DNA of 64,000 nt. Origin: Thermoplasmata archaeon. GTDB lineage: Archaea; Thermoplasmatota; Thermoplasmata; Methanomassiliicoccales; Methanomethylophilaceae. Below are positions 7,098-64,000 of this stretch, one piece after another. Location: the NCBI GenBank assembly GCA_015063125.1, contig SUTB01000006.1:1-64000 (forward strand), in the 5' to 3' direction. Under the pieces are notes generated by a model. It ran no database searches and was not told where the DNA came from. It worked only from the letters and a program-made list of their open reading frames with translations. A program made the translations under genes and the position numbers. Position 1 is the first letter of the stretch, and the number at the start of each line of letters is the position of its first letter.

Positions 7098-8336
7098 ATG
7101 GAAGACCTTCTCAAACAGGGATCCCTGAAGCTCCACTGGGTAGAGACTCACATGCCCGTGCTCCAGGAGATCAGAAAGAATTTCATAAAGGAGCAGCCCC
7201 TGGCAGGATTCAAGATCGGAATGGCCCTCCACACAGAGGCCAAGACAGGTATGCTGGCCATCACTCTGGCGGACGCAGGTGCGAACATCCGCCTCGCGAG
7301 CTGCAACCCCCTCTCCACGGACGACTCCGTCGCCACCGCGCTGCGCGACGAGTACGGACTGGACGTCTTCGCTAAGAAATGGGAGACGCAGGAGGAGTAC
7401 TACGCGAATCTCAATACGGTCCTGAACATGAACCCGGACCTTATCATCGATGACGGTGCGGACCTGATCACGATGGCCCACACCAGCCGCAGGGAGGTGC
7501 TGCCCAACATCAAAGCCGCCAACGAGGAGACCACCACCGGTGTGACCCGTCTCAAGGCCATGGCAGCCGACGGAACCCTGCAGTTCCCCGTCCTGGACGT
7601 CAACGACGCCAAGATGAAATTTCTCTTCGACAACAGGTACGGAACCGGACAGTCAGCATTCGACGGATGGATGAACGCGACCAATCTGCTGGTCGCCGGA
7701 AAGACCCTTGTCGTCGCCGGTTACGGATGGTGCGGAAAGGGAATCGCCATGAGGGCCAAGGGAATGGGTGCCTGCGTAATCGTCACGGAAGTGGATCCCG
7801 TCAAGGCCATAGAGGCCAAGATGGACGGATTCCAGGTCATGAGGATGATCGATGCCGTCAAGATCGCGGACATGATCTTCACGGTCACAGGATGCAAGGA
7901 CATCATCGCACTGGAGCACTTCCAGGTCATGAAGGACGGCTGCGTCGTAGGTAACGTCGGTCACTTCGATAACGAGATCAACAAGGAGCATCTCTACGCT
8001 CTGTCCGAATCATGCACCCGCGTCCGCGAGTTCATCGACGAGTACAAGATGAAGGACGGCCGCCGCATCTATCTGATCGGAGAGGGCCGCTTGATGAACC
8101 TGGCAGCAGGTCAGGGACACCCCGCGGAGATCATGGACATGTCCTTCGCGACACAGGCTCTCGGTATCGAGTACATGAGCAGGAACTACGAGAACATGGA
8201 GCCCACGGTCCACAGGGTGCCCGAGATGATCGACAAGAAGATCGCGAGCATCAAGCTGGAGTCCATGGGAGTGGTCATCGACCACCTCTCGGATGACCAG
8301 ATAAAGTACACCACTGGATGGCAGGAAGGCACATGA
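7098..8336 (+). CDS. ahcY: Adenosylhomocysteinase (SAH or S-inosylhomocysteine hydrolase)
   Basis: A 412-residue SAH hydrolase. The substrate-binding HTEAKT (45-50), NEETTTGV near 152-159, and the NAD-binding GYGWCGKG (198-205) are all present, as is the C-terminal region ending near the dimer-completing tail. It removes the product of SAM-dependent methylations. Some methanogens use a paralogue on S-inosylhomocysteine, which sequence alone does not exclude. The stop overlaps the PfkB kinase start (ATGA), implying coupled translation and disposal of the adenosine released. Confidence 0.95.
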   Translation: MEDLLKQGSLKLHWVETHMPVLQEIRKNFIKEQPLAGFKIGMALHTEAKTGMLAITLADAGANIRLASCNPLSTDDSVATALRDEYGLDVFAKKWETQEEYYANLNTVLNMNPDLIIDDGADLITMAHTSRREVLPNIKAANEETTTGVTRLKAMAADGTLQFPVLDVNDAKMKFLFDNRYGTGQSAFDGWMNATNLLVAGKTLVVAGYGWCGKGIAMRAKGMGACVIVTEVDPVKAIEAKMDGFQVMRMIDAVKIADMIFTVTGCKDIIALEHFQVMKDGCVVGNVGHFDNEINKEHLYALSESCTRVREFIDEYKMKDGRRIYLIGEGRLMNLAAGQGHPAEIMDMSFATQALGIEYMSRNYENMEPTVHRVPEMIDKKIASIKLESMGVVIDHLSDDQIKYTTGWQEGT

Positions 8337-9253
8337 AGGAGCCCTTCCTGTCCGTCTACGGCCATGTGACCGTCGACCAGATAATGACGGTCAGGAAGTT
8401 CCCCGCGGACAACACCACCGAGGACATCGTCACGAAGATGACGACCCTCGGCGGGACGGGGACGAACATCGCCGTGGCGGCGGCCAAGCTGGGATGCCCC
8501 ACCGCTCTCTGCGCTTTCGTAGGCAACGATTTTCCCGGCATGTACGAGAAGCAGATAGCCGATTCAGGATTGATACTGGACGAGTTCCTCCATGTGGACA
8601 AGTTCGAGACATCCGGAGCGGTCGTCGTCAACGATCCCAACATGGTCCAGAAGGTCGTGTTCTACCAGGGGCCACAGGGTTTCGCCGATGAGGTCGGGAT
8701 CATGCTCACATCGAATGCGAAGAAGTCCAAGCACACGCACTTCTGCACAGGCCAGCCCTCCTATTACATCAAGGTCATGGACGCGATCAAGGGATGCACC
8801 AAGATCGCGCTGGACCCTGCCCAGGAATCCCACAGGATATGGAACAGGGACAACTTCGTCCCTGCTCTGGAGAGATCGGATTCATTGTTCTGCAACAACT
8901 TCGAGGCGGAGTCCCTGAAGAAGTATGCCGGGATTGATGACATCCTGGATGCCGATGTCGGCATGGTCGTATGCACGCACGGGGCCGAAGGCAGCGTGGC
9001 CAGGATCGGCGACGAGAGGATCAGGATCCCTACGGTCAAGGCCGACAGGATAGCGGACCCTACAGGCTGCGGGGACACCTACAGAGCGGGATTCTACACT
9101 GCACTGTACAAGGGATACGGCATCCCCGAGGCGCTGACCATAGCATCAGCCGTAGCATCCTTCGTCATAGAGGAGACTGGGGCCCTGACGCATATCCCCG
9201 ATTGGGATTCCGTCATGGCCAGGGCGGAGCCCTATCTGAGAGAGATCTCATGA
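8333..9253 (+). CDS. PfkB-family kinase, probably adenosine/nucleoside kinase
   Basis: A 306-residue ribokinase-fold protein. It has the N-terminal GGTGTNIAVAAAKLG motif (PfkB signature 1) and the C-terminal ADPTGCGDTYRAGFYTAL motif (signature 2 with the catalytic Asp and anion hole; GCGD replaces the usual GAGD). ATG at 8333 overlaps the ahcY stop and follows AGGAAGG, so it is preferred over an upstream start at 8318. Position between SAH hydrolase and an AMP-type kinase suggests it phosphorylates adenosine, but the substrate is inferred from context. Confidence 0.85.
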   Translation: MKEPFLSVYGHVTVDQIMTVRKFPADNTTEDIVTKMTTLGGTGTNIAVAAAKLGCPTALCAFVGNDFPGMYEKQIADSGLILDEFLHVDKFETSGAVVVNDPNMVQKVVFYQGPQGFADEVGIMLTSNAKKSKHTHFCTGQPSYYIKVMDAIKGCTKIALDPAQESHRIWNRDNFVPALERSDSLFCNNFEAESLKKYAGIDDILDADVGMVVCTHGAEGSVARIGDERIRIPTVKADRIADPTGCGDTYRAGFYTALYKGYGIPEALTIASAVASFVIEETGALTHIPDWDSVMARAEPYLREIS

Positions 9254-11594: not shown

Positions 11595-13208
11595 TCATCC
11601 TAGGTAGATCAGATCGCGTAATCCGTCCATCACGTGGGGATCCTCGATGACCTTCTCAAGGTCCTCCATGGAGGCGAAAGGCCTCTCTAAAACTAACTTG
11701 CTGGCTCTCTTCTTTCCGATACCCGGCAGAGCCTCCAATGACGACATCGGCATGTGGTTGATGTCGAAGGGATAGGTTATCCCTGTGATCGAGCGGAATC
11801 CCCATTCGGTGATGAACACATCGGTGAACTGCTCCGTGTCGAGCTTGTACGGTATCCCTATCAGGAGCGGATAGGATCCGATCTGTCTGCCGAATGTCGT
11901 GTTCCCGTCGTTCAGCTCCAGATAGACGTCCTTTAGGACGGTCCCGTAGGGCACGATGCTCTCAAGCATCGCACGGTCGATCTCCTCGCGAACCTCCTCC
12001 TTGAACTTCTTGAATCTGCGCTGGTCGACCTTGACGTTGAAAGGTCTTCTGACCGGAAGGACCTGACGGATGTTGATGCGGCGGACCATCAGCCCTTCGT
12101 CGCGCATCTTCCTCAGGATCTCCATGTCCATGTCGTATGTGGCCGGCGTCTCTCCGTCCAGACCGCATACGATGTTGATCCCGGGGAGCAGCTTGGGCAT
12201 ACCTCTCGGGCCTCTCTCGGAGCCGACCTCGTTGATGAGCCTGACGGCATCCATGACCTGCTCGGATGTGCTGTTGAGGTTGTTCTCGGTGACCACGAAC
12301 GGATCCGCCGATTCCATCCCAAGGGCGAGGACGTTGCCGTCCGTGCAGTTGTCAGCGAGTATCTTGAGGACCTCCCTTGATTCCTCCGGGTAGCTGGCGA
12401 TGACGGCAGGGTTCGCATTGTCCACATGTATCGTCGAGAATCCCATGGCGTTCAGGCCTTCGAAGAGCTCCCTCACGGCCGAGGGATTAGGCCTAGGTAT
12501 CTCGGAATCGTCCTCGGAGCCGTAGGACACTATGCATGTCTGGCCGCCTATCCTGATGTTCCTTACACCGAGCTCCCTGAGCCTGGAAGCTTCAGCCAGT
12601 ATGTCCTTCGGGGCCCTCATCAGCGGTCTGCCCTTCAGAGGCTCGATGCAGTATGAGCATCCTCCCGACTTGTAGCGGTGGCATCCCCTGTACGATTCTA
12701 TCTCGGCCACAAGGGGATCTGGGAAGTCCTGATGCTGGGTGACGATGTCGGCACCCAGGAGCATCCATCTGTTCCATTCCTCGAGCGTCCTGAAACGCTC
12801 TCCGACCTCCTTGCCGCAGATGCCATCATAAAGCGATGCCGCGGGATCCTTCCTGATGACGAAGTCGAAGAGTCCAGCCTCCTCAGAGTCGGCGGCGGAA
12901 CCGCTGATCATCTTCCATCCCTTAAGCTTCGGAGCGATCTCCTTCAGCTCCTTCAGGGACATCGGCATGGTCCTGAGGTACTTACCGGGGACGGTGTTCC
13001 CGGAAAGAACGACCGTGACCGCGGCATCGGGGATCTTCCTGTGCCTGCGGATCATGTCTATGGAGATGTACTCGACCCTGTCGGCACCGGCATCCAAGGC
13101 GGCGCCTGCTATCGAGCGTATCATTGGCGATATGTAAGGCGGCACCCCCAGTGCAGCCGGGTCGTCGATGTAACCGTCGATGAGGACGATCACTATCTCC
13201 TTGGTCAT
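11595..13208 (-). CDS. Radical SAM protein with C-terminal helix-hairpin-helix domain
   Basis: A 537-residue archaeal protein matching the radical SAM plus HhH family (COG1031 type). Cluster ligands are spaced C-x7-C-x2-C (C166, C174, C177), unlike the standard C-x3-C-x2-C. SAM-binding features follow (GGQTC, GMESADPFV). The C-terminus carries a HhH motif (ALPGIGKKRASKL) typical of nucleic-acid binding. Function is not established; a tRNA or DNA substrate is plausible from the HhH. The N-terminal ~150 residues resemble a B12-binding-like alpha/beta domain of radical SAM enzymes, but I am unsure. Confidence 0.85.
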   Translation of the reverse strand: MTKEIVIVLIDGYIDDPAALGVPPYISPMIRSIAGAALDAGADRVEYISIDMIRRHRKIPDAAVTVVLSGNTVPGKYLRTMPMSLKELKEIAPKLKGWKMISGSAADSEEAGLFDFVIRKDPAASLYDGICGKEVGERFRTLEEWNRWMLLGADIVTQHQDFPDPLVAEIESYRGCHRYKSGGCSYCIEPLKGRPLMRAPKDILAEASRLRELGVRNIRIGGQTCIVSYGSEDDSEIPRPNPSAVRELFEGLNAMGFSTIHVDNANPAVIASYPEESREVLKILADNCTDGNVLALGMESADPFVVTENNLNSTSEQVMDAVRLINEVGSERGPRGMPKLLPGINIVCGLDGETPATYDMDMEILRKMRDEGLMVRRINIRQVLPVRRPFNVKVDQRRFKKFKEEVREEIDRAMLESIVPYGTVLKDVYLELNDGNTTFGRQIGSYPLLIGIPYKLDTEQFTDVFITEWGFRSITGITYPFDINHMPMSSLEALPGIGKKRASKLVLERPFASMEDLEKVIEDPHVMDGLRDLIYLG

Positions 13209-60662: not shown

Positions 60663-61475
60663 GTGGACAAGGGAAGGAACAGTCTCCAGAACATCGGGAG
60701 GATCATACATCTCTTGAAGGAGAAGGGCATCATTCAATCTGATAATCCCGCACGTATGGTGCCGAATGACATCAGGTGTTTCGTGGAAGAACGCAGATCC
60801 GGAGGTATTTCGGAATCCACTGTCTCCAGAGATCTGTCCTATCTCGATGGTTACCTCTGTTTCCATGACAACTGTTCCGTGAGGGAATATCTGGAAGGCC
60901 TCAGGATCAGGAATTTGGAAGAGAAAAAGGAGAATTCTAAGAAGGCCCTGAGGATGTTATTCCTGCACAATTCCAAGGACGTTAAAGGCAGCCATCTTGT
61001 GAAGGCATACGCTTTCGTCATGCTGGCGATAGTGTTCGATATACCTCCGGACATGCTCCGCAAGGCGATGCTGCGCAACGCATTCGAGAACGGCTGTGTG
61101 AACAACTATCGCATCAGATTCATCGATAGGAGCGGTATGGAAAGGGGTGAGCTTCTCGACCTTAACAGACTTCCGGTGATCGGCAGATATATCGATCAGA
61201 CTTATCTGCTCGGGTTTGTCAATTCCACACCGAGACCAATATTTCCATCATCCAATCCTCTCTTCGATTACATCAGTCTGGATGAATCCAGGGAGCTCAA
61301 GCATCAGGTGGAGGAGGATATTGGCCTCAGTTTCGATTATGCTCAATGTACTGAGATCTATCTCGATATGCTGGAAGACGATTCTCCCGTTCAACGCAAC
61401 AAACCTGTTCTAAACGGAATCTGGATGCCCCCTTTCAGAAGAAGATCTCTTTTTGACCGTCTTTTGCACCGTTGA
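60663..61475 (+). CDS. Degenerate tyrosine-recombinase-like protein
   Basis: A 270-residue protein (GTG start). Residues 1-~75 resemble the SAM-like core-binding domain of phage integrases (RMVPNDIRCFVEERRSGGISESTVSRDLSYLDGYL). The following part follows the catalytic-domain layout (YRIRFIDRSGMERGELLDLNRLPVIGRYI, IFPSSNPLFDYISLDES), but the GLR catalytic Arg, the HxLR block and catalytic Tyr are not recognisable; instead it reads DIPPDML and LSFDYAQCTEIYLDML. Likely an inactive or divergent recombinase. Codon use is less biased than in core genes. Confidence 0.6.
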   Translation: MDKGRNSLQNIGRIIHLLKEKGIIQSDNPARMVPNDIRCFVEERRSGGISESTVSRDLSYLDGYLCFHDNCSVREYLEGLRIRNLEEKKENSKKALRMLFLHNSKDVKGSHLVKAYAFVMLAIVFDIPPDMLRKAMLRNAFENGCVNNYRIRFIDRSGMERGELLDLNRLPVIGRYIDQTYLLGFVNSTPRPIFPSSNPLFDYISLDESRELKHQVEEDIGLSFDYAQCTEIYLDMLEDDSPVQRNKPVLNGIWMPPFRRRSLFDRLLHR

Positions 61476-61797: not shown

Positions 61798-62400
61798 TCA
61801 ATTCGCCATCCTTTTGAATCCGATATCCACACCATATTTTTCTTTCAATACCCATCTGAGGCCTGTGTTTATCATGCCGTTAGACATATTGTTTGCATCC
61901 TCCAGAGTTATGATGTTGCTGGCTAGACAGTTCAAGAACATATGTACAAGGCCTGATATAATAACGGACAGGGTCTCTGTGGTCTGCGTACTGGGCTCTT
62001 CCATATCTATCTGAAGGTCATTGAACAGCATATTTTCGATATAGGAACGATATCTCAAAGAGAACTCTGGATCCTTATATTCCATGACCAATGGAATCAG
62101 ATATCTTTCATTCTCAATGAACAGCTCCTGGAAGCGCGGTATGAACGATTGGAAATCACGATTCTCATTGTTACTGGTCTCGAATAGGTCGCGGATTAGA
62201 TCCATCTGTTTTTGTTTTATGGAGTCCAGAACCTCATCGATGTAATTGTAGTAATAGTAGAATGTGGAGCGTGTGATGCCTGCATTTCTGCAGACGTCTT
62301 CTACGGTCACTCTCTTTTTCTCCTCCGAGGTGTAGAGCTCCCAGAACGATTCCTGAATGCTCACCATTGTTCTGTTCCTTGCCGCTTCGTAGATTCCCAT
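61798..62400 (-). CDS. TetR/AcrR-family transcriptional regulator
   Basis: A 200-residue TetR-type protein: N-terminal HTH (RVTVEDVCRNAGITRSTFYYYY, residues about 30-51) followed by a helical ligand-binding domain. It is AT-rich compared with core genes, consistent with horizontal transfer. Divergent from the ACGX peptide gene; the 109-bp gap between the two starts contains their promoters, so it is the prime candidate to control the cassette. Confidence 0.88.
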   Translation of the reverse strand: MGIYEAARNRTMVSIQESFWELYTSEEKKRVTVEDVCRNAGITRSTFYYYYNYIDEVLDSIKQKQMDLIRDLFETSNNENRDFQSFIPRFQELFIENERYLIPLVMEYKDPEFSLRYRSYIENMLFNDLQIDMEEPSTQTTETLSVIISGLVHMFLNCLASNIITLEDANNMSNGMINTGLRWVLKEKYGVDIGFKRMAN

Positions 62401-62509
62401 TTGTTATTCTCCAATTTCTTACATAATGATTGATTTCGTAGTATTTTATTTAAACCGAATGATATTATATTAAATATTAAACAAAAAATTGAACTCCGAG
62501 GTCATAAAA
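62401..62509. promoter_or_regulatory. Divergent promoter region between tetR and the ACGX peptide gene
   Basis: Very AT-rich. A TATA-like ATTATATTAA (about 62464-62473) lies suitably for a transcript starting around 62492-62495 and the ATG at 62510; CGAGGT 8 bp before the ATG is the ribosome-binding site. No convincing TetR palindrome was found. Confidence 0.45.
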
Positions 62510-62725
62510 ATGGCACTTAAGAATCTATTTGGAACGGATTCCCCTTCATCGGCTTGCGGCAGTGCATGCGGTTCAGGGGACAAGAAGAGATCCTCTGCGT
62601 GCGGAAGTGCTTGTGGCTCGGGCGACAAGAAGAGATCCTCTGCGTGCGGAAGTGCTTGTGGCTCGGGCGACAAGAAGAGATCTTCCGCCTGTGGCAGCGC
62701 ATGCGGTTCAGGGGACAAGAAATGA
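62510..62725 (+). CDS. Predicted RiPP precursor with four ACGSACGS repeats
   Basis: A 71-residue peptide: a 12-residue N-terminal piece MALKNLFGTDSP followed by four 15-residue units of SSACGSACGSGDKKR (the last ends ..GSGDKK). Each unit has two Cys spaced C-x3-C, and each Cys is followed by Gly-Ser, giving eight Cys. The peptide is hydrophilic with a Lys-rich linker in each unit. It is immediately followed by a radical SAM/SPASM enzyme gene. From memory this is the ACGX-repeat peptide family with a paired rSAM protein; the mature product has not been characterised to my knowledge. ATG at 62510 follows CGAGGT; a TTG at 62489 is rejected. Confidence 0.85.
   Translation: MALKNLFGTDSPSSACGSACGSGDKKRSSACGSACGSGDKKRSSACGSACGSGDKKRSSACGSACGSGDKK
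62546..62725 (+). repeat. Four tandem 45-bp coding repeats in the ACGX peptide gene
   Basis: Units at 62546-62590, 62591-62635, 62636-62680 and 62681-62725. Units 2 and 3 are identical at DNA level; units 1 and 4 differ from them mainly at synonymous positions and share different codons (GGT TCA GGG against GGC TCG GGC). So inner units duplicated recently and the protein sequence is under constraint. Confidence 0.9.
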
Positions 62726-62766
62726 ATTAAACGGCCCTCTGAATATGGGGGCCACTTTCCGATATC

Positions 62767-63807
62767 ATGGATTATTTCGCTTTCCAATTGCACATCACCG
62801 AAGCCTGTGATCAGCGTTGCAAACATTGCTATATCTACGCTCTAGGCAGCCATGCTGAATTCAGGGAGATGTCTCTGAAGGATATGAGGACGGTGCTGGA
62901 TAATATCAAAGAGTTCTGCAGGAAGGCCAACCGCCTTCCCTACCTGTATATAACCGGCGGAGATCCGATACTCCACCCCGATTTCTGGTCATTGGCGGAA
63001 ATTCTGAGGTCCGAAGAGATTCGCTTTGCGATATTGGGCAACCCGTTCCATCTGACCGAGGATGTATGCAGGAGACTGAAAGATTGCAGTTGTTGCAAGT
63101 ATCAGCTCTCCCTCGATGGTTTGAAAGAGACACATGATGAAATCAGACAGCCCGGCTCATATGATTCCACGATGGATGCAATACCGCTTCTGAAGAGAGC
63201 GGGGATAGATGTCGCCATCATGACCACGGTCTCCAAATGGAATGTGAAAGAGATCCCTGAACTCATCGATGAGGTTGTAAAGAACAAGGCCGACATCTTT
63301 GCCTTTGCCCGCTACTGTCCTTCGTTGATGGATAGGGATACAACTTGCGATCCCTTGGAATACCGGGATATGATGGATAAGTGCTGGAAGAAGTTCGAGC
63401 AGTACAAGGATTCGGATACATATTTCAATCTGAAGGATCATCTCTGGACCTTGTACAGGTATGAAATCGGGGATTTCGATCCCAAAGAGTTCCCTGATGA
63501 CGAATATGTCTATGATGGATGCAACTGCGGCAATTCCCACCTCACCATCCTGTCCGATGGTGCCGTATATGCATGCAGGAGGATGGAGAGCAAGGTTGGT
63601 AACGCATTGACAGATGACCTATATGATCTGTTCACTGGACCCAAAATGGATGTATACAGAGTGTATGAGAATTTTGAGAAATGCTCCAAGTGCGAGTTAC
63701 TCCGTTTCTGCAGAGGCTGTCCGGCCGTTGCCAAGGGATATCATGGGAACATGTATGCGGCCGATCCCCAATGCTGGAAGGTGATTCGGATCGATGAGGG
63801 CAGTTAA
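62767..63807 (+). CDS. Radical SAM/SPASM peptide-modifying enzyme (ACGX system)
   Basis: A 346-residue radical SAM protein with CxxxCxxC (C14, C18, C21: ACDQRCKHCY) for the SAM cluster, GGDP (64-67) in the next motif, and a C-terminal SPASM domain with C252, C254, C270, C306, C309, C315, C318 and C336 (CNCG, YACRR, CSKC, FCRGC). SPASM enzymes install thioethers or other crosslinks on Cys-containing peptides. It follows the repeat peptide gene by 41 bp, so its substrate is probably that peptide. Its end overlaps the next gene by 14 bp. AT content is higher than in core genes. Confidence 0.88.
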   Translation: MDYFAFQLHITEACDQRCKHCYIYALGSHAEFREMSLKDMRTVLDNIKEFCRKANRLPYLYITGGDPILHPDFWSLAEILRSEEIRFAILGNPFHLTEDVCRRLKDCSCCKYQLSLDGLKETHDEIRQPGSYDSTMDAIPLLKRAGIDVAIMTTVSKWNVKEIPELIDEVVKNKADIFAFARYCPSLMDRDTTCDPLEYRDMMDKCWKKFEQYKDSDTYFNLKDHLWTLYRYEIGDFDPKEFPDDEYVYDGCNCGNSHLTILSDGAVYACRRMESKVGNALTDDLYDLFTGPKMDVYRVYENFEKCSKCELLRFCRGCPAVAKGYHGNMYAADPQCWKVIRIDEGS

Positions 63808-64000
63808 GATAGACAGGATAACCCCGGCTGACGATGTGTCGCTGACGGAAGTTCCGATACCTTCTGTACGTTCGGGATGGGTTCTGGTCAAGGTCAAGGC
63901 TTTCGGGATGAACCATTCCGAGAAGATCCTGAGATTGGGGGAGATCGAAGCCGATTACATTTCCAGACCTGTGATCCCTGGTATCGAGTGCGTAGGCGAG
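63794..64000 (+). CDS. MDR-family zinc-type alcohol dehydrogenase/quinone oxidoreductase, truncated by window end
   Basis: The visible 69 residues start MRAVKIDRITPADDVS and contain VRSGWVLVKVKAFGMNHSEK and PVIPGIECVGE, the GroES-like N-terminal domain of the MDR superfamily. In this family the FGMNHSE region carries the first zinc or substrate position. The start codon overlaps the rSAM gene, so translation is probably coupled and it may belong to the same pathway. The catalytic core and C-terminus lie beyond the window. Confidence 0.75.
   Translation, partial: MRAVKIDRITPADDVSLTEVPIPSVRSGWVLVKVKAFGMNHSEKILRLGEIEADYISRPVIPGIECVGE

Follow-up and report, generated by a model that had tools for sequence, protein, structure and literature searches.

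The ACGX system is a two-gene system described in silico, in which a Cys-repeat peptide (NCBIfam TIGR04341, "ACGX-repeat peptide") precedes a radical SAM/SPASM enzyme (TIGR04340, "radical SAM/SPASM domain protein, ACGX system"). The NCBI annotation of Roseburia sp. 831b names the pair acgA/acgM. A search of the open literature returned nothing relevant on chemistry or function. Several characterised systems resemble it in part. SbtM (TIGR04082) is a radical SAM/SPASM enzyme that modifies peptide Cys or selenocysteine, and its product is a thiooxazole formed with the loss of four hydrogens (PMC11002830). In the ranthipeptide system PapB/PapA (freyrasin), a single radical SAM maturase acts on multiple Cys-X3-Asp units; PapB links Cys-X3-Asp/Glu and tolerates 0–6 intervening residues (PMC9413430). 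The EGKCG repeats of captophorin- and bufferin-type peptides, which also contain Cys-Gly, are converted to copper-binding 5-thiooxazoles by nonheme iron enzymes (PMC12668002).

We analysed a 64,000-nucleotide stretch of a Thermoplasmata archaeon genome (contig SUTB01000006.1, hereafter the window), near the end of which lies such a pair. A first-pass annotation made from the sequence had linked the pair to an ACGX system, correctly: in an NCBIfam model search both genes score above the curated cut-offs. Judged by these matches, the pair is a new member of the system already named. It has the same gene order and nothing essential is different; the window member is characterised by four Cys units, a TetR regulator and a medium-chain-type (MDR) dehydrogenase partner. 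To the named pair we add its cross-domain distribution, the single A-C-G as the probable substrate, and the recurring redox and regulator neighbours.

The precursor AcgA and its repeat array

The acgA gene (62510..62725, plus strand) begins with the ATG at 62510, ends with a stop codon at 62725 and encodes a peptide of 71 aa that matches TIGR04341 with 35.8 bits (cut-off 28). The coordinates of the first-pass annotation, 62510–63807, fit the start of acgA and the end of acgM exactly, and the overlap with the dehydrogenase gene noted there is confirmed. AcgA consists of the leader MALKNLFGTDSPS followed by four Cys units with RS joints between them, at 62549..62587, 62594..62632, 62639..62677 and 62684..62722, all on the plus strand. 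Every unit reads SACGSACGSGDKK and contains one ACGSACGS Cys pair, giving eight Cys per peptide, and Cys-X3-Asp is present in all four, a spacing that had escaped the earlier reading. That reading was right about four repeats with ACGSACGS; its "15-residue unit" is better described as an identical 13-residue block plus a two-residue RS joint, repeated with a period of 15 residues or 45 nt. A Pfam "Resistin" match to AcgA, below its cut-off and with no significant stretch, was rejected as reflecting Cys composition only.

Unit 2 has the same DNA sequence as unit 3. All other pairs of units differ by 5, 8 or 11 nt, always at third codon positions and always synonymously. If single changes were placed in a unit at random, about 23% would be synonymous; in a simulation, five random changes left the unit protein intact in 0.03% of trials. 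The repeats are therefore under selection as protein and form a real coding repeat. A genome of the same species (G159) has three units against four in the window, and from this and the identity of units 2 and 3 it follows that the array changes by whole units.

We compared 16 distinct AcgA precursors containing 98 Cys. Of these Cys, 95 are followed by Gly and 82 preceded by Ala. An acid stands at +4 less regularly (Asp 38/98, Glu 5/98). It is frequent, though not invariant, after the terminal Cys in Oscillibacter, Hallella (as Glu), Clostridia, Subdoligranulum and Roseburia; it is missing in some units, such as CGAGAK in Roseburia and CGSGGK in two archaea of the same family (G387 and G375), and is moved to +3 in Methanosphaera. 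Pairing varies too: the Hallella precursor has single ACGAGEKPS units, the Methanosphaera precursor single ACGxE units, and one precursor (L015) three Cys, arranged as one single and one pair. Because Cys-Gly is nearly invariant while spacing and pairing vary, AcgM probably takes the single A-C-G unit as its substrate rather than the Cys pair. Precursors of the window's group have short leaders; those of G387, G375 and Methanosphaera have longer ones.

The regular repeats and the basic spacer GDKKRSS of the window AcgA had led the first-pass annotation to propose cleavage at the spacer with release of four short peptides, as would suit an exported signal or a bacteriocin-like product. The comparison speaks against it. 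Spacers in the other lineages have no KKR (AGEKPS in Hallella, EVVSS in Methanosphaera), the precursors differ in the number of their units and in the distance between them, and beside the cassettes examined no protease, transporter or exporter, or immunity gene recurs. We consider an exported, processed product highly improbable.

The enzyme AcgM

Downstream of acgA lies acgM (62767..63807, plus strand), which encodes a radical SAM/SPASM enzyme of 346 aa. AcgM matches TIGR04340 over residues 2–339 with 597.8 bits (cut-off 400), and both PF04055 and PF13186 are above their cut-offs. Since the model alignment begins at residue 2, AcgM has no N-terminal leader-binding extension. The first-pass annotation had pointed out the cofactor CxxxCxxC and SPASM cysteines. 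The three Cys of the motif (C14/C18/C21) are invariant in 18 homologues, as are eight Cys in the C-terminal part (C252, C254, C270, C306, C309, C315, C318 and C336). By sequence, the eight C-terminal Cys fit a full SPASM domain. An additional Cys, C206, is kept in all 18 proteins.

Structure prediction without an alignment was poor (pLDDT 42). A prediction from 11 sequences reached pLDDT 68.8, and its best structural matches were SuiB, SkfB and anSME. As much of the SPASM part lies below pLDDT 50 (residues 242–257 and 296–335), we did not take cluster geometry from the model.

After TIGR04340, the characterised family that scores highest for AcgM is SbtM, with 184.6 bits over model positions 199–505 only; the first ~200 model residues are unmatched and the cut-off of 350 bits is missed. 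The PapB model NF047865 gives 70.5 bits (1.5e-19; cut-off 340) and sactipeptide maturase models about 59 bits. None of these passes its own cut-off, so AcgM was not filed under SbtM, PapB or the sactipeptide maturases. No true SbtM scores above the cut-off in the order; the matches listed are the AcgM proteins themselves.

Two further Thermoplasmatota genomes (G017 and G005) encode a sister radical SAM/SPASM enzyme at loci L028 and L029 (1501–2538, minus strand), directly followed by a CGGC-repeat peptide. It scores 276–281 bits to TIGR04340 and 204 to SbtM, both below cut-off, and looks like the maturase of a separate, unnamed precursor–maturase pair between the ACGX and Sbt systems. These enzymes have a Cys matching C252 of AcgM and none matching C254, which therefore looks like an AcgM-specific addition.

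Proposed chemistry

We infer that AcgM modifies AcgA; Cys modification of the peptide is a plausible prediction. AcgM, as a SAM-radical enzyme with two predicted auxiliary Fe–S clusters, would recognise the short conserved AcgA leader (MALKNLFG-type) and modify the Cys of each A-C-G unit one after another. In an SbtM-like reaction, oxidation of each Cys and ring closure with the backbone carbonyl before it would yield a thiooxazole (−4 Da per Cys), and a window AcgA peptide could have up to eight of these. The modified AcgA would probably stay uncut inside the cell, as a thiol/metal- or redox-active peptide in a TetR-regulated stress module with an NAD(P)H quinone-reductase-like partner. To this reading as a whole, that is, an SbtM-like thiooxazole at each A-C-G, a peptide kept in the cell and a redox or electrophile-stress module, we assign a rough probability of 0.4. 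The CGGC-repeat peptide that follows the sister enzyme in L028 and L029 also speaks for it.

The thiooxazole is favoured because SbtM is the nearest characterised enzyme, because Cys-Gly is near-invariant, and by analogy with the EGKCG peptides. Like those peptides, AcgA has tandem Cys-Gly units and would carry several independent modifications. Captophorins and bufferins differ in their other partner genes and in their MNIO enzyme, an iron-dependent oxidase (PF05114) that would be an alternative thiooxazole maker; it is unrelated to AcgM and absent from this genome. The window cassette also differs from the SbtM system in that no evidence of selenocysteine was found for it. Against the thiooxazole stand the missed SbtM cut-off and the acid at +4, which fits a Cys-Asp/Glu thioether equally well.

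Such a PapB-type thioether would join each Cys-X3-Asp, leaving the first Cys of the pair free or otherwise paired. The units typical of a ranthipeptide precursor, Cys-X3-Asp/Glu, occur in all four window units and in most but not all homologues, the +4 acid recurs in other lineages, and AcgM has the full SPASM Cys set together with a recognisable match to PapB. However, that match is far below both the SbtM score and the PapB cut-off, and AcgA has a strict Ala-Cys-Gly context that PapA does not share. At +4 of the first Cys of each pair, nearly half of all Cys, stands another Cys and not an acid. Finally, the acid is lost or shifted in some units where Cys-Gly is nearly invariant, which a linkage driven by the acceptor would leave without explanation. 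The thioether is thus possible though on the unlikely side, and from the sequences we infer that the thiooxazole is somewhat likelier. The question of AcgA chemistry is narrowed to two options distinguishable by mass, −4 Da per Cys or −2 Da per Cys-Asp pair.

Neighbouring genes in the window and the genus

A gene for a TetR-family regulator of 200 aa (61798..62400, minus strand) is divergent from acgA. Its TetR_N domain scores just below the Pfam cut-off, and it matches TIGR02366 and TIGR03968. The first-pass annotation had not counted this gene as part of the cassette. A full-length homologue stands beside acgA–acgM in eight of the nine acgM-positive genomes of the genus, and the Lachnospiraceae and Clostridia loci have a TetR homologue at 31% identity. 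The gene is a probable regulator of the cassette. Between it and acgA, at 62420–62440, lies the imperfect inverted repeat TACATAA-N7-TTTCGTA, a candidate TetR operator. The sequence around it is conserved in relatives, most of which have TTTTGTA.

On the other side, the gene for an MDR/quinone-reductase-like oxidoreductase of 315 aa (plus strand) starts at 63794 and overlaps the last 14 nt of acgM. It runs past the window end at 64000 to position 64741 of the contig (C7; 3795–4742 in locus L009). ADH_N and ADH_zinc_N are above cut-off, and the best NCBIfam match is a PIG3-type quinone reductase, below its cut-off. Of the 31 genomes of the genus, nine encode the dehydrogenase, and these are the same nine that carry acgM. 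Given this and the TetR gene in eight of the nine, MDR, TetR and acgM vary as a unit in the genus.

A small precursor, a radical SAM enzyme, a TetR regulator and a dehydrogenase side by side recall mycofactocin, and modified AcgA might accordingly be pictured as a peptide-derived redox carrier for the neighbouring dehydrogenase. The TetR gene matches the mycofactocin regulator model weakly (1.6e-5), the dehydrogenase follows acgM as described, and in other lineages its place is taken or shared by nitroreductase or flavin/Fe-S proteins. Yet AcgM gives the mycofactocin maturase model TIGR03962 only 81.5 bits against a cut-off of 265, mycofactocin-type partner genes were not seen, the mycofactocin precursor is unrelated to AcgA, and a repeat array is unlike a single-site cofactor precursor. 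We regard the redox-carrier role as quite doubtful.

In two genomes of the set, MDR and TetR fragments lie outside the intact cassette (G442, contig C48, 3750–4213; G446, contig C92, 5705–6025). The MDR fragments contain stop codons, and all are apparently decayed second copies.

Redox neighbours across lineages and a proposed cell role

In every cassette examined, genes for NAD(P)H/flavin oxidoreductases occur together with a regulator of the TetR or HxlR family. The Hallella cassette has MDR upstream and a PNPOx-Fer4 flavin/Fe-S protein with HxlR downstream. Oscillibacter, Subdoligranulum and Roseburia share the set HxlR, acgA, acgM, nitroreductase and PNPOx-Fer4. In the archaea G387 and G375, HxlR is present and a nitroreductase directly follows acgM (in G375 a nitroreductase-like ORF, by frame reading); the same-genus G452 has an HxlR-like gene and MDR. 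Methanosphaera, where acgM is annotated in two pieces, has HxlR and PNPOx-Fer4 divergent and MDR downstream. Clostridia L019 combines TetR, a ferredoxin–nitroreductase fusion, MDR and a second nitroreductase, and Lachnospiraceae L017 has TetR and PNPOx-Fer4. For the bacterial flavin/Fe-S partner, only short ferredoxin-like parts match elsewhere in the window's genome.

The HxlR proteins that we inspected share an N-terminal Cys-Pro without exception. HxlR-family regulators of Bacillus sense hypochlorite, quinones and diamide through a conserved N-terminal Cys, with nitroreductase among their targets (PMC6943732). The redox genes that adjoin the cassettes suggest that AcgA, retained in a redox or electrophile-stress module, may protect against chemical stress. 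Counting against this is that the window type has TetR, not HxlR. The redox partners could also tailor AcgA rather than share its function. Genes for metal transport or metal sensing do not recur beside the cassettes, which leaves a metal role without genetic support. The comparison of cassettes offers a cell role that can be tested, namely redox or electrophile stress.

A bolder extension of the thiooxazole reading would make AcgA/AcgM the oxygen-independent counterpart, in anaerobes, of captophorin and bufferin: a thiooxazole at each A-C-G would turn the retained peptide into a multi-site trap for soft metals or electrophiles, within a quinone- or disulfide-stress module common to gut archaea and bacteria through gene transfer. 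In this full form the proposal seems to us rather unlikely.

Distribution and gene tree

AcgM above cut-off was found in 11 of 147 genomes of the order, including the nine of the genus. A twelfth genome of the order (G171) has an acgM copy broken by a stop. The closest relatives, at 67–99% identity, come from ruminant Methanomethylophilaceae, Oscillibacter, Lachnospiraceae, another Clostridia MAG and Hallella; relatives at 53–56% are on plasmids of Methanosphaera, Subdoligranulum and Roseburia. The first-pass annotation had proposed that a lack of conservation of the peptide with the enzyme in other genomes would count against it, and the pair is indeed conserved together. The order acgA, then acgM, is kept in Methanomethylophilaceae, Methanosphaera, Clostridia and Hallella; wherever the sequence before acgM can be read, a Cys-repeat ORF immediately precedes the gene, apart from the fragmentary match L021. 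The L017 precursor is apparently shortened by a frame change. On viral contigs no relative was found. A cassette for a peptide with predicted modification is documented as spread between archaea and bacteria that live in the gut and rumen of animals, plasmids included.

In the AcgM tree, the window clade forms a group with Hallella, Clostridia, Oscillibacter and Lachnospiraceae (99/100), and the same-family copies G387 and G375 and the same-genus copy G452 fall outside this grouping. Support is weak at several deep forks and L030, the outgroup, has a very long branch, so we took from the tree only its mixing of archaeal and bacterial copies. This mixing is most naturally read as transfer of acgA–acgM between the domains.

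Three related ORFs around the cassette (60663–61475 in the window; 8215–9225 and 14132–15091 in L009) have tyrosine-recombinase domains, one with a full Phage_integrase match and two with the N-terminal SAM-like domain only, one of these below cut-off. A similar ORF lies at 12166–13065 of locus L011, and these genes may reflect mobility of the cassette region. Two genome bins each hold two different acgA–acgM cassettes, the roe deer MAG RGIG4496 (L011 and L012) and G446 (contigs C48 and C69), as either true paralogues or mixed strains.
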